From positions 496,001 to 560,000 of the forward strand of contig NZ_LQBN01000001.1 of NCBI RefSeq assembly GCF_001507535.1: a DNA stretch of 64,000 nucleotides, in the 5' to 3' direction. The position numbers were made by a program, and so were the translations under genes. How positions within the stretch are numbered: the first letter of the stretch is position 1; each line of letters begins with the position of its first letter. Below, one piece after another: positions 38,613-43,700 of the stretch. The notes below the pieces were generated by a model. The model was not told where the DNA came from. It saw nothing but the letters and a program-made list of their open reading frames with translations, and made no database searches. Origin of the DNA: Thiomicrospira sp. WB1 (GTDB lineage: Bacteria; Pseudomonadota; Gammaproteobacteria; Thiomicrospirales; Thiomicrospiraceae).

Positions 38613-38957
38613 AGGTCCTATCGGTCGTGCCTCGCTCGCCCTGTGTGAGCTGAGACGACGGGTGCCAACAGATAGAAATACGAGAATCGTTACTCAAAAT
38701 GTTTCACTGCCTTGGCAACAGTGCACCTTTCTGGCTGGTTTTGTGGTCAATGTCATCCAATGGTATGACTTTGTGTCGTATGGTCACCAAGCCTATTTTC
38801 CGTCCTAACGCTTTTTAGACTCCCTCTCTCTTTGTGTTTCTGTTCATTTAAGTCCTGTTGTTCTGGTTTGCGCAACGGTTAATTGCACTGTGGCCGGTAT
38901 GTGCGGCCAGTCGATTGAACTAAGCTTATGGCTAGGTCGTCACGAGGGTCTGTTGAC
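38613..38957. other. Intergenic region with a decayed transporter fragment
   Basis: 345 bases with no intact gene. The only recognisable content is a short remnant resembling the first helix of an MFS/MHS transporter (38692-38808). No clear terminator, promoter or RNA gene was found. Confidence 0.6.
38692..38808 (+). pseudogene. Remnant of an MFS (MHS-type) transporter N-terminus
   Basis: In one frame this stretch reads FLAGFVVNVIQWYDFVSYGHQAYF before a stop at 38806. The N-V-I-x-W-Y-D-F-x-x-Y-G pattern is the first-helix signature of metabolite:H+ symporters such as ProP or ShiA. There is no convincing start codon and nothing transporter-like afterwards, so this appears to be the eroded end of a deleted gene. 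The match is short and judged by eye. Confidence 0.45.
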
Positions 38958-39515
38958 ATGTCGTTACAAAATTCGTCTCACCATTATGGCTGGTTGACCA
39001 TTGCATTGCACTGGGTGATCGCTTTGGGTGTGTTGAGCGTTTTCTTTCTGGGGCTGTGGATGGTGACCCTTGATTATTATTCCACTTGGTATCACCAAGC
39101 GCCCTGGGTGCATAAATCATTGGGGGTGGTGTTGGTCGGGTTGATGGTTGTTCGCTGGATCTGGCACCGAATCTCCTGTGTGCCCAAGCGATTTGAAAAT
39201 CTGCCGGCAGCATGGATGCACGCGGCGGTGCATGCCAGCCATCTTATGATGTATGGGCTGGTATTGTTGATCGGGCTGACGGGGTATTTGATCTCGACCG
39301 CGGAAGGCAAGCCTGTGTCGGTGTTTGATTGGTTTCATATTGCCGCGCTGCCCTGGCAGTTTGAGCAACAAGCCGATTGGGCGGGTTGGTGGCACCAGTG
39401 GCTTGCCTATGGGTTATTAGCACTGGTCGTTATGCACGCTGTGGCGGCGCTGAAACATCATTTTGTGGACAAAGACTGTACGTTGAAACGCATGTTGAAC
39501 ACTCAACCTTATTGA
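38958..39515 (+). CDS. Cytochrome b561-family membrane protein
   Basis: A 185-residue, four-helix di-heme b-type cytochrome candidate. Histidines in HYGWLTIALHWVIA, HKSLG, HASHLMMYG and VVMHAVAALKHHFVD occupy the usual heme-ligand places. It probably passes electrons from the quinone pool to a periplasmic acceptor. ATG 38958 follows GAGGG; an upstream in-frame start at 38928 adds ten residues. The next gene encodes a YceI protein; cytochrome b561-YceI pairs are common, YceI being an isoprenoid-quinone-binding lipocalin-like protein. Confidence 0.92.
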   Translation: MSLQNSSHHYGWLTIALHWVIALGVLSVFFLGLWMVTLDYYSTWYHQAPWVHKSLGVVLVGLMVVRWIWHRISCVPKRFENLPAAWMHAAVHASHLMMYGLVLLIGLTGYLISTAEGKPVSVFDWFHIAALPWQFEQQADWAGWWHQWLAYGLLALVVMHAVAALKHHFVDKDCTLKRMLNTQPY

Positions 39516-39545
39516 TCCATTTTCACCAAAGCAAGGAGTTGAATG

Positions 39546-40121
39546 ATGAAACGTTTACAAACAATGGCTCTGGCCGCCGGAATGACTGTGGCCGCTGTTT
39601 CCCAGGCCGACCCGGTTACTTATCAGATCGACACCCAAGGCATGCATGCCTCCATCAATTTTAAGATTCAGCATCTGGGTTACAGTTGGCTGACGGGGCG
39701 GTTTGATGAGTTTGAAGGCACCTATGTGTACGACAAAGATAAGCTCTCCAACAGTCGGGTCGAAGTGAGCATCGACACCGCCAGTGTGAACAGTAATCAT
39801 GCGGAACGTGACAAACACTTACGCAGTGATGACTTTCTGAGTGTGGCCGATCACCCTAAAGCTGTATTTGAAAGCACGGCGATCAGCGGAACTGGTAAAG
39901 AGATGACCATTGAGGGCAATTTGACTTTGAATGGCGTGACCCGTGCCATTGTGATTGACGCTCAGAAAGTGGGCGAAGGCAAAGATCCCTGGGGTGGTTA
40001 TCGCAGTGGTTTCAAAGGTAGCACGACCCTGAAACTGGCGGATTTTGACATCACAAAAGATCTGGGACCCGCTTCCACCGAAGTCCATTTAATGTTGCAC
40101 GTGGAAGGGGTGCGCCAGTAA
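39546..40121 (+). CDS. YceI-family periplasmic lipid-binding protein
   Basis: A 191-residue periplasmic beta-barrel protein. The signal peptide ends near [11 protein letters not shown]. The domain shows [31 protein letters not shown] and [26 protein letters not shown], typical of YceI. It is likely to bind a polyisoprenoid, perhaps ubiquinone, and to work with the cytochrome b561 upstream. AAGGAG lies seven bases before ATG 39546; ATG 39543 is adjacent. A strong terminator follows. Confidence 0.93.
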
Positions 40122-40317: not shown

Positions 40318-41025
40318 TCAGAACTTGTAGTAGGACCAGCCTTGTTGCATTTGATGGACGATTTCATCAATCGCCGGTTTATCCGCTTTCACTCCATCAA
40401 TCAGTTTGATGGATTCGCCCTTGGCCGCACGGCGTTCCAAAGCGCGCTGACAAGCAATCAGTTTCAGGTTGTCATATTGCGCCAATAAACCAATGATGGC
40501 TTCCCGGTTCTGGTTGTCCTGTTCGAACAAATCCACCCCTTTGTCATTGGCAACGATTTCAATCTGTATTGGCGGCACGTCCTCGTTCGTTTTGTTTGCT
40601 TGCAAAAGTGTACTGGCTTTTTGCAAGAGGGCTTGGGTTCTGTCCGGTTGATTGGAATCAATGTGCAACAAAATCCGAGAGTTGGATGCGTCAGTCTTCA
40701 CCAAAGAAGAGCCGCTGAACTCATGACCGGATGTGGGTGCATTCGCCCACCAGACCCCTCCAAGTGTGACTGCGATTAGCACCGAAGCGGCCGTTGCCCA
40801 ATAAGACACTCTGTAAGGCTTTTTTGAGCGCGCACTCGGCGGCACCGGCACTTGGCGGTAGTGCTCCAGCATCTGCTGTTTGATTTTTCGAAGCTCGCAG
40901 ACTTCTGCTCGCAGAGCGGGATCCAGCGCCATGTTTTTCTCAAAACGCTGGCGCTCATGCGACGAGAGTTCTCCATCTAAATACGCATGAATTTCCTGCG
41001 ATGTCGTTTTCTGTTTTTCTGTCAT
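40318..41025 (-). CDS. Anti-sigma factor with periplasmic DsrE-like sensor domain
   Basis: A 235-residue membrane protein. The cytoplasmic N-terminus (EIHAYLDGELSSHERQRFEKNMALDPALRAEVCELRKIKQQ) has the form of an anti-sigma/zinc-finger-like domain, but without the HxxxCxxC zinc ligands. A single helix spans 74-94. The periplasmic part (about 115-235) matches DsrE-family proteins: QIEIVANDKGVDLF, LKLIACQRAL with Cys192, and LIDGVKAD...GWSYYK. It aligns by eye over its length with the secreted DsrE protein at 41813, including the single Cys. It overlaps the sigma gene by four bases. A DsrE-type sensing domain on an anti-sigma factor is unusual. Confidence 0.8.
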   Translation of the reverse strand: MTEKQKTTSQEIHAYLDGELSSHERQRFEKNMALDPALRAEVCELRKIKQQMLEHYRQVPVPPSARSKKPYRVSYWATAASVLIAVTLGGVWWANAPTSGHEFSGSSLVKTDASNSRILLHIDSNQPDRTQALLQKASTLLQANKTNEDVPPIQIEIVANDKGVDLFEQDNQNREAIIGLLAQYDNLKLIACQRALERRAAKGESIKLIDGVKADKPAIDEIVHQMQQGWSYYKF

Positions 41026-41603
41026 TTCGTGCGACTCTTTTTTAAAACGACCACGTTGTCTTGATACTTGGGCTGTGACCCCTCGTTGGTCACCAGTTTT
41101 TTCAGTTTCTCCCGGCCGCGAGACAGTCGACTCATGACCGTTCCGGCGGGCACATCGATGATGTCCGCGACTTCCTGGTATGAAAAGCCTTGCAGATCAA
41201 CCAGAGCGATCACCTCCCGTTGGTCAACAGGCAGGTTTCCCATGGCATCGTGAATGGTTTCAACAGCCTGCTTACGAATGTATTGTGATTCCAATGATTC
41301 CGTTTTCATCTGATGTTCGGCTACCTCGGCAACCGTCACATGTTGCCAGCGGGCATTATGCCGACAATTATCATAAAACAGATTATGCATGATTTTGCAT
41401 AACCAACGGTCAACGCTGTTAAAGCAGGTCAGTTGATCGGCTTTCTGCAATGACTTCACCATTGTGTCTTGTACCAAATCTTGTGCCAAAGACTCATCTC
41501 GACTCCAAGCGTAAGCAATACGGTAAAGGTCAGCATAATGCGATTCAAGCACAGCATTCAATTTGACTTGGTTGGTTTTTAACTTTACCCAGTGGCTAAT
41601 CAT
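41022..41603 (-). CDS. ECF-type RNA polymerase sigma factor
   Basis: A 193-residue sigma-70 family protein with region 2 (LYRIAYAWSRDESLAQDLVQDTMVKSLQ; CKIMHNLFYDNCR) and region 4 (LPVDQREVIALVDLQGFSYQEVADIIDVPAGTVMSRLSRGREKLKKL). It should direct polymerase to promoters for an envelope or sulfur-related response. A strong GGAGGGG site precedes ATG 41603. It is co-transcribed with its presumed anti-sigma factor downstream, and is divergent from the DsrE-porin genes, which are the obvious candidate targets. Confidence 0.95.
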   Translation of the reverse strand: MISHWVKLKTNQVKLNAVLESHYADLYRIAYAWSRDESLAQDLVQDTMVKSLQKADQLTCFNSVDRWLCKIMHNLFYDNCRHNARWQHVTVAEVAEHQMKTESLESQYIRKQAVETIHDAMGNLPVDQREVIALVDLQGFSYQEVADIIDVPAGTVMSRLSRGREKLKKLVTNEGSQPKYQDNVVVLKKSRTK

Positions 41604-41735
41604 TTACCCCTCCTTTTTTCATCATAGGAGAAAGACCAACCCGCCACAAGTGCTTGTTTTGTCTATAAGAATATAATTGTTTTATGAAATAAACAGGCGT
41701 TATTTACTCATAGAAATAATCATGCAAGAAAGTTG

Positions 41736-41761
41736 GAATAAAGTCGTGTTGATTTGCGTTG
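41736..41761 (+). promoter_or_regulatory. Possible ECF-type promoter before the DsrE gene
   Basis: GGAAT (41736-41740), a 17-bp spacer, then CGTT (41758-41761), resembling the GGAAC/CGTT form of several ECF promoters, 51 bp before the DsrE start. The same 209-bp divergent gap has an inverted repeat AAATAA/TTATTT (41687-41692, 41701-41706). Tentative. Confidence 0.3.
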
Positions 41762-41812
41762 TTGGGGGGAGTGCTGTTGATAGCCTCATATCAAAACTGG
41801 AGGAAATAAAAC

Positions 41813-42274
41813 GTGTTCAAACAGAAAGTAAACCTGTTCATTTTGAGTTGGCTCGCGACACTGCTGTTCTCAGCCAATGTCGTGGCGGCCGCTCAAGAAC
41901 CCCCGTTGCCGGAGACTTTTGCAACCCACAAGGTCGTCCTGCAAATCAGTGATCCTAACCCGTTCAAGCAGACGTTGGTGTTGAACGTGGCCAACAACCT
42001 GATGAAGCACTATGACGCAGGTGATTTAGATTTGGAAATCGTCGCGTTCGGACCGGGTTTGCGATTGATGTTGGAAGGCAATGCCAACACGGCTCGCATT
42101 CAATCGCTCATGGACGTCGGGGTTCGTTTCAGTGGTTGTGCCAATACGCACAAGCATTTTACCAAAATTCTGGGAAGCAAGCCTCCTCTGATCGAAGGGG
42201 TGAGCGTGGTGCCCGCTGGCGCCGCACGTATTTTGCAACTGAATGCAGCGGGCTATCAGATATTGAAACCCTAA
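41813..42274 (+). CDS. Secreted DsrE-family protein
   Basis: A 153-residue protein. A signal peptide (cleavage near VAA-AQEP) is followed by one DsrE/DsrF-like domain: THKVVLQISDPNPFKQTLVLNVANNLMKHY, LDLEIVAFGPGLRLML, FSGCANT with Cys109, and LIEGVSVVPAGAARI. Members bind or relay sulfur, or act as small thiol-linked sensors; the exact role here is unknown. GTG 41813 is supported by GGAGG nine bases upstream. The porin gene follows 63 bases later. Resemblance to the anti-sigma sensor domain suggests the two interact or respond to the same signal. Confidence 0.85.
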   Translation: MFKQKVNLFILSWLATLLFSANVVAAAQEPPLPETFATHKVVLQISDPNPFKQTLVLNVANNLMKHYDAGDLDLEIVAFGPGLRLMLEGNANTARIQSLMDVGVRFSGCANTHKHFTKILGSKPPLIEGVSVVPAGAARILQLNAAGYQILKP

Positions 42275-42337
42275 AACCGCTCAGGCTGGAAGCCACAGGA
42301 TTTAAAAAAGACAACATAACGATTAGAGAAGAGGCTT

Positions 42338-43651
42338 ATGAAGAAACAATTTTTGACCAAAGTACTCCCCGCTGCTGTCATGGCGGCTTGCTTTACGTCG
42401 CCAGCTCAGGCCACCAACTGGTTGATGCTGCAGGGCACTGAACGGGCCGATCAAGCGCCAAGGGCCAAACTATGGGGATTTGTGCAACTGGATTATCAAC
42501 AGACCGATGACACCAAGCTGAAAGCCGGGCCTTATGCCGGGAAGTCTGCCGCTTTTAACCAAATGGCCCCGCAGTTGGATACGCCCAGCGGTTTCAATGT
42601 CAAACGTGCCCGAATCGGGGTGCGGGGGAATAATCTGCCATTAGACAAAAAGGTTAATTATTTTCTGCTGGCAGAAATGGGCAACAATGGCGTCACGACC
42701 GGTGAAGGTGCTTCGCAGGGGCAATTGACGGACGCCAGTGTGACCTTGAATCATATTCCCGGTGCGCGTGTGCGCGTTGGCCTGTTCAAAACCCCAGGGT
42801 CAGAAGAAGGGTTGCAGGCCGCGTTTGTTGCCAACTATAACAACTTTTCCAATGCGACCAACCGCCTGTTGTTGGAAAGAACGTTCGATTATCAAAGTGG
42901 CAATACCGGGCGAAACGGGCCGGTCGGCGCCTTTCGGGATACCGGGGTGCAGGTTTTTGATACATTCAATCTTGGGGGATGGGAGACCAGTTACGCGGTC
43001 ATGATCGGAAACGGGGCCGGTTTGGCGTATACGGATAACGATCAAAATCGTGACACCTATCTCTATGCCTCCACCGAAAAAGTTTTTGGCAGCTCCAAAG
43101 GGCCTCGTCGACATGGGTTTAAGCTTTATGCCTGGAATCAAGCCGGTCAACGCAGTTACAACGACGGTACCCCCAGTTCGTCTGGCGCGGACACCGACGA
43201 GGATCGTACACGTCGGGGTGTAGGGACCACTTATTTTGACGGTACCTACCGACTGGGAGCTGAGTACATGACGGCCGACGGAATGATCTATGGGGGGACG
43301 ACCGGTGCCGGGACGCCCGACGATGGAGCGACGTTTACCGTGTTGCCGGATCAAAAAGCCGACGGTTATTACGTCAGCCTGGGGTATCGCCCGATGTCCA
43401 ATGTGGAGCTGGATGTGCGTTACGATCGACTCAACAGCGGTACGGACAAAAACGGCACGGGTGGAGCGGGTGCGAAACGCGTGTTTGAAACCACCACGCT
43501 CGGCGCACAGTACTTCTTTAATAAAAAGACTACCCTCAAAGCCAACTATGAAATCCGCAGTATTGACGCCCCCAACTCAAATGACACGGTCAATCGAATT
43601 TTGGACTCGATTGATGATCGTATCTCATTACAGTTGACAGCCGTTTTCTAA
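42338..43651 (+). CDS. Phosphate-selective porin O/P-type outer-membrane protein
   Basis: A 437-residue outer-membrane barrel. The signal peptide MKKQFLTKVLPAAVMAACFTSPAQA precedes a mature part with AKLWGFVQLDYQQTDD, GFNVKRARIGVRGNNLP, VRVGLFKTPGSEEGLQ and a C-terminal QLTAVF, features of the porin O/P family. The substrate is unconfirmed; many members carry other anions. AGAGG precedes ATG 42338. It is likely co-transcribed with the DsrE gene, under the divergent ECF sigma factor. Confidence 0.88.
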   Translation: MKKQFLTKVLPAAVMAACFTSPAQATNWLMLQGTERADQAPRAKLWGFVQLDYQQTDDTKLKAGPYAGKSAAFNQMAPQLDTPSGFNVKRARIGVRGNNLPLDKKVNYFLLAEMGNNGVTTGEGASQGQLTDASVTLNHIPGARVRVGLFKTPGSEEGLQAAFVANYNNFSNATNRLLLERTFDYQSGNTGRNGPVGAFRDTGVQVFDTFNLGGWETSYAVMIGNGAGLAYTDNDQNRDTYLYASTEKVFGSSKGPRRHGFKLYAWNQAGQRSYNDGTPSSSGADTDEDRTRRGVGTTYFDGTYRLGAEYMTADGMIYGGTTGAGTPDDGATFTVLPDQKADGYYVSLGYRPMSNVELDVRYDRLNSGTDKNGTGGAGAKRVFETTTLGAQYFFNKKTTLKANYEIRSIDAPNSNDTVNRILDSIDDRISLQLTAVF

Positions 43652-43675: not shown

Positions 43676-43700
43676 GGCCTGCTTTTGCAGGCCTTTTTTT
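43676..43700 (+). terminator. Rho-independent terminator after the O/P porin
   Basis: GGCCTGC pairs with GCAGGCC across a TTTT loop, followed by seven T residues. Confidence 0.92.

Follow-up and report, generated by a model that had tools for sequence, protein, structure and literature searches.

The window analysed here, a stretch of 64,000 nt, carries two divergently oriented gene pairs. On the minus strand lie the gene of an ECF σ factor (41022..41603; 193 aa, with regions 2 and 4 assigned by Pfam and NCBIfam) and, overlapping its 3′ end by ATGA, the gene of a 235-aa anti-σ factor (40318..41025). The plus strand encodes a secreted DsrE protein (DsrE1; 41813..42274), which consists of a signal peptide and a DsrE domain with a single cysteine (Cys109, codon at 42137–42139), and an outer-membrane porin (42338..43651) distantly related to the OprP/OprO (Porin_O_P) family. 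The dsrE1 gene has a GTG start preceded by GGAGG. A predicted ECF promoter that is conserved across relatives, GGAATAAA-N14-CGTT (41735..41760, plus strand), is located upstream, its CGTT starting 56 nt ahead of the GTG, and a likely intrinsic terminator, GGCCTGCTTTTGCAGGCC-T7 (43676..43700, plus strand), follows the porin gene. The same locus is present in another genome of the genus (G001, contig 2). In the window's species dsrE1 and the porin gene are separated by 63 bp (42275–42337), whereas six other genomes of the genus have a further gene for a secreted DsrE protein, dsrE2, at this place. The anti-σ gene is adjoined by a cytochrome b561-like and then a YceI-like gene (38928–40121; names assigned by eye); nothing related to either turned up in the loci of relatives. 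A search for defence systems returned no match, and inspection by eye recognised no sulfite oxidase gene beside the window's σ gene.

The σ protein matches the Pfam models Sigma70_r2 (1e-11) and r4_2 (2e-16) and scores 94.4 bits against the sigma70-ECF model TIGR02937, whose cut-off is 42.9. With regions 2 and 4 and a length of about 190 aa it thus has the make-up of an ECF (group 4) σ factor. Residues 13–85 of its neighbour match NCBIfam models of anti-σ N-terminal domains, none of which reaches its full-length cut-off. This domain, the adjacent σ gene and a single membrane helix (residues ~73–95; 40741..40809, minus strand) are the hallmarks of a membrane-bound anti-σ factor of the class I type, and the protein is predicted to bind and inhibit its cognate σ factor. 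The helix was placed by hydropathy and its orientation by the count of lysines and arginines: eight basic residues and one acidic residue occur in the 29-residue inner flank. With the basic side inward, the anti-σ part would be cytoplasmic and the C-terminal part would sit in the periplasm. Among 61 anti-σ sequences compared, Asp17, Cys192 and Trp230 are invariant, and none contains the zinc anti-σ (ZAS) motif HxxxCxxC.

According to the initial annotation, the periplasmic portion of the anti-σ factor is a DsrE domain that aligns along its length with the secreted DsrE protein encoded on the other side of the σ gene and shares one cysteine with it. All of this was borne out. The domain covers residues ~113–235 (40321..40689, minus strand). 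When residues 110–235 were scanned alone, with a start methionine added, PF02635 was matched with E=5e-6 (27.1 bits; cut-off 22.7), while a Pfam scan of the whole protein reported no DsrE match at E<=10. A profile search of the PDB with this domain retrieved 1l1s (E=2e-17) and 2pd2 (E=3e-10). The window's secreted protein remains below the PF02635 cut-off of 22.7 bits (E=0.0029, 18.2 bits), and 27 of 42 members of its family match the model (best 1.8e-12). In sequence searches of the PDB both window proteins hit MTH1491 (1l1s), and the two family profiles recovered MTH1491 and ST0148 from the solved structures, aligned over the whole domain and with the cysteine retained. Sequence match and conserved cysteine place both domains in the DsrE/DsrF-like family (PF02635), and a DsrE fold is predicted from the profile homology to 1l1s. 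A pairwise BLASTP comparison of the two proteins aligns only 65 residues (E=7e-4), so that profiles were needed to establish homology over the full length. Comparison of the two family profiles with hhalign covers 119 columns with 99.5% probability (E=9.5e-23) and places Cys192 on Cys109; by this measure the homology is correctly claimed and well beyond chance. The DsrE domains of the anti-σ factors form one clade separate from the secreted ones (support 0.87), and the fusion to the anti-σ part therefore probably arose once.

Cys192 (codon at 40450..40452, minus strand) is the sole periplasmic cysteine of the anti-σ factor. It was conserved in all 28 sequences of a first set and in all 61 of a larger one, and each of these 61 proteins has exactly one cysteine in its last 122 residues. 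Likewise, the DsrE domain contains exactly one cysteine in 97 of 97 secreted proteins. With a single cysteine, a sensor domain cannot form an internal disulfide, and the candidate states of Cys192, which is likely to be the sensing thiol, are a persulfide, some other adduct of one thiol, or a bond to a second molecule. Beside the invariant cysteine and tryptophan, the DsrE domain of the anti-σ factors has a near-invariant glycine and a near-invariant tyrosine.

In an evenly drawn sample of 369 gammaproteobacterial genomes, 66 encode a full-length fusion of an anti-σ part and a DsrE domain. They belong to 40 GTDB families, which consist mostly of uncultured bacteria, and a phylum-wide search recovered full-length fusions only from Gammaproteobacteria. 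Most carriers that have a name are sulfur oxidizers, among them Hydrogenovibrio, Thiomicrorhabdus, Sulfurivirga, Halothiobacillus, Sedimenticola and Thiolapillus; Hydrogenovibrio is a genus of chemolithoautotrophic sulfur oxidizers. To survey neighbourhoods, 80 named loci were collected with the DsrE1 alignment as query; a direct contig search with the anti-σ protein gave no match. A porin gene is present in 78 of these loci and a fusion with its σ gene in 60 (54 of the 63 loci whose upstream sequence spans at least 2.5 kb). The gene order anti-σ/σ//dsrE/porin is kept in most loci, and a survey seeded with the fusion showed the same arrangement in most of the additional loci, which came from other families.

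The genes that most often accompany the fusion are those of secreted DsrE proteins. Several fusions, such as those at L054 and L057, have a porin gene and no recognised dsrE alongside, which makes the porin a core partner. What the initial annotation said of the sensor, the shared cysteine, the release of σ to express dsrE-porin and the sulfur context is supported, but the two DsrE domains do not make up the core by themselves, since the porin equals the secreted DsrE protein in conservation as a partner. Half of 16 sampled porins match Porin_O_P, a family of phosphate and polyphosphate channels (best E=1.3e-12), and the window's own porin gave no match to this model; the relationship suits an anionic substrate without proving one. 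Variant arrangements were also seen. Two loci (L141:4069–6472 and L175:3560–5895) contain tandem fusion/σ pairs, each with its own DsrE-anti-σ protein, adjoining dsrE and porin genes. At L291:2942–4392, the promoter motif described below precedes dsrE beside another σ gene and a gene for a 94-aa protein, which may be an anti-σ factor and perhaps represents a split form of the system.

A promoter near 41736 from which the released σ factor would express the dsrE-porin operon had been postulated, and sequence conservation agrees with both parts of this proposal. GGAATA was found in 21 of 21 intergenic regions of the first relatives; 14 of them contain GGAAT-N17-CGTT, and three more have CGTC at equal spacing when read by eye. 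Among the 63 named loci, GGAATA-N16-CGT is directed toward dsrE in 33 and toward the σ gene in 20, compared with a mean of 0.08 and a maximum of 1 match in dinucleotide shuffles; a strict match is missing from about half of the loci. It is therefore very likely that the σ factor acts on the dsrE operon, and in many relatives the σ operon is probably self-activated. Positive autoregulation is not general, however, because the σ gene in the window's genus has no ECF-type promoter of its own.

The genome to which the window belongs contains three perfect promoter matches, one of them at 41735–41760. The other two were dismissed as chance occurrences: one is located inside the fliQ/fliR region and one is antisense to an ABC ATPase gene. 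As both lie inside unrelated genes, the predicted regulon is local and would comprise dsrE and the porin gene but not sox. No promoter match, allowing up to one mismatch, was detected near the sox genes of this genome (C1:951811, C3:152422). This genome has a second dsrE1-porin pair (C1 ~300885–302728; L169:2386–4229, minus strand), whose dsrE gene is interrupted in frame by a TGA following 'KIL'; upstream of it no GGAATAAA site was seen. In other genomes (G112, G188 and G276) the motif also precedes unlinked secreted dsrE genes. Several genomes have matches that read GGAATATATCG...; these resemble coding sequence of a queC-like gene and were left uncounted.

The sulfur context suggested by the initial annotation found support in a near-total co-occurrence with soxB and in the same promoter ahead of sox operons of relatives. 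Since no promoter match lies near the sox genes in the window's genome, this link comes from relatives. soxB is present in 65 of 66 fusion genomes versus 86 of 303 genomes without fusion (Fisher p ~1e-28, a descriptive figure that ignores phylogeny and is inflated by phylogenetic clustering). The strict motif GGAATAWW-N14-CGTCT was found in 44 of 66 fusion genomes versus 10 of 66 soxB genomes without fusion, and of the matches in the latter that could be compared, none is located near the soxB gene listed. In five fusion genomes the motif is located directly upstream of sox genes, with six matches against 0.08 expected. It precedes soxX-soxA-soxB in G112, soxX-soxZ-soxA-soxB-dsrE in G199, soxB in G294, a soxX-Z-A-B operon in G364 and both of two separate units, soxX-Z-A and soxB, in G183; a gene at the soxY position counts only as a putative soxY. 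The sox operon, dsrE, the fusion-σ pair and the divergent dsrE-porin genes of G199 all lie within 14 kb. In a further genome, G298, soxX, soxA and soxB immediately follow the fusion gene in the same orientation, and the porin gene is divergent. Sox proteins were identified by NCBIfam cut-offs in G112, G199, G294 and G298 and by BLAST to those proteins in G183 and G364. A motif match near soxX of G131 has the wrong orientation and was not counted.

The motif also occurs between the σ gene and a divergent gene for a secreted SoxB-related protein (genomes G115, G126 and G131; loci L130:1–1362, L148:4494–6626 and L153:1786–3960). The best model for the proteins facing the σ gene in three relatives is TIGR04486 (SoxB), yet they score far below its equivalog cut-off and hence are not called SoxB. 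At L305:1745–5084, the motif precedes two co-oriented genes, one for a SoxA-like protein and one for a member of the same porin family. Taken at the level of sequence, the sulfur context and the target genes of the switch are well supported, and control of sox is predicted from the promoters in five relatives, not from the window's genome.

That an ECF σ/anti-σ pair with a periplasmic DsrE sensor acts on the dsrE-porin operon is likewise well supported by these comparisons. We consider it reasonably probable that the system is a transmembrane switch for reduced sulfur. In our model, the N-terminus of the anti-σ factor would hold the σ factor in the cytoplasm while the periplasmic DsrE domain reports the state of the periplasmic sulfur pool. 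The most likely trigger would be uptake by Cys192 of sulfane sulfur, as a persulfide from thiosulfate or polysulfide turnover, or a bond between Cys192 and the single cysteine of secreted DsrE. The anti-σ factor would then be inactivated, with proteolysis and a conformational change as alternatives, and the freed σ factor would transcribe dsrE and the porin gene from the GGAATAAA-N14-CGTT promoter. The porin may admit anionic sulfur compounds, and the secreted DsrE protein may bind or pass on sulfane sulfur and feed back on the sensor. In distant relatives the switch would also drive sox operons and further dsrE genes. In a bolder version of this model, which we regard as tentative and on balance rather unlikely, the DsrE domain of the anti-σ factor and one or two secreted paralogues would form a membrane-tethered hetero-oligomer like DsrEFH or TusBCD, in which a persulfide passes from the periplasmic pool via secreted DsrE to Cys192.

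Alternative readings differ in what they take to be the signal. DsrE-fold proteins form oligomers, and the anti-σ domain might bind its secreted partner instead of sulfur, with sulfur-loaded DsrE serving as input or free DsrE re-arming the anti-σ factor as feedback. The frequency with which secreted dsrE genes accompany the fusion, their placement under the same promoter even when unlinked, and the single cysteine per partner, which allows a mixed disulfide or a one-step transfer, would all fit such contact; the fusions that have a porin and no recognised neighbouring dsrE (L054, L057) speak against it, and we judge this reading unlikely. A lone conserved cysteine would also suit as a generic redox or metal site, and Cys192 could report periplasmic oxidants, electrophiles or thiophilic metals such as arsenite, with the porin and DsrE protecting the envelope. 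In Thioalkalivibrio, arsenite affects DsrE/F-like genes and a porin that may or may not belong to the present family (PMC6620896). However, the occurrence of the system's promoter ahead of sox operons and the close association with soxB genomes point to sulfur compounds, and a thiol-stress sensor therefore appears improbable to us.

Least probable, and by our estimate highly so, is a classical envelope-stress switch in which the DsrE domain is a structural platform only and misassembled porin provides the signal, in the manner of RseA. A single-pass anti-σ factor encoded next to a porin gene and weak matches of two family members to RseA_N are compatible with it. A mere platform, by contrast, hardly accounts for the invariant and near-invariant residues of the DsrE domain, and the predicted regulon consists of sox and dsrE, not of chaperones and proteases.

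The reduced-sulfur switch proposed here is a concrete and testable candidate for the way in which sulfur-oxidizing Gammaproteobacteria detect thiosulfate and other reduced sulfur beyond the cytoplasm and turn on Sox. It combines one σ factor, an anti-σ factor whose periplasmic part has a single cysteine, and a short promoter motif; sox, secreted DsrE proteins and a porin of the anion type are among its predicted targets. Through it the DsrE fold would acquire a function in signalling, and a sulfur sensor suited to transfer would be at hand. If the hetero-oligomer relay were true, an enzymatic sulfur relay would have been turned into a transmembrane transcription switch governing sulfur oxidation across Gammaproteobacteria.

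Parts of this design recur in known systems. DsrEFH and TusBCD are cytoplasmic sulfurtransferases. They share with the present proteins, as does the MTH1491/ST0148 group, a DsrE-family domain with a conserved cysteine. Whereas DsrEFH and TusBCD are cytoplasmic hetero-oligomers acting with DsrC or TusE, one DsrE domain is here fused to an anti-σ factor across the membrane and the others are secreted. SoxR and SqrR, ArsR-type cytoplasmic repressors of sox and sqr genes that respond to sulfane sulfur, likewise use cysteines (more than one) for sulfur sensing in the control of sulfur oxidation, but they are not σ/anti-σ systems and have no periplasmic sensor. Cell-surface signalling of the FecI/FecR type also combines an ECF σ factor, a single-pass anti-σ factor and control of an outer-membrane protein gene. 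The outer-membrane protein here is, by contrast, a Porin_O_P-like channel, and neither a FecR domain nor a TonB-dependent receptor was matched.

ECF σ factors have been connected with inorganic sulfur before. In Sinorhizobium meliloti, the ECF26 σ factors RpoE1 and RpoE4 and their anti-σ factors mediate a response to sulfite and thiosulfate (PMC3511301; PMC6527743). These pairs control a sulfur-oxidizing enzyme and their own operon, and they resemble the proposed switch in being ECF σ/anti-σ pairs that respond to inorganic sulfur compounds. RpoE4 differs in that its target is a sulfite dehydrogenase operon and that it belongs to a different bacterial class, and text searches of these papers found no DsrE domain described in the anti-σ factor (PMC3511301; PMC6527743). 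In Arcobacter butzleri, the ECF systems of σ2 and σ7 participate in sox regulation, altering sox expression as proposed here; a text search of that paper (PMC3445524) found no mention of DsrE. The initial annotation knew of no ECF system of the present design, and the openly licensed literature, from which the main ECF reclassification paper is left out, yielded neither an ECF system with a DsrE sensor nor an anti-σ factor with a DsrE domain. Judged on that literature, the DsrE-sensor system is likely to be novel: most likely an ordinary ECF/anti-σ chassis to which a sensor domain not described before and a regulon of sulfur genes have been added.
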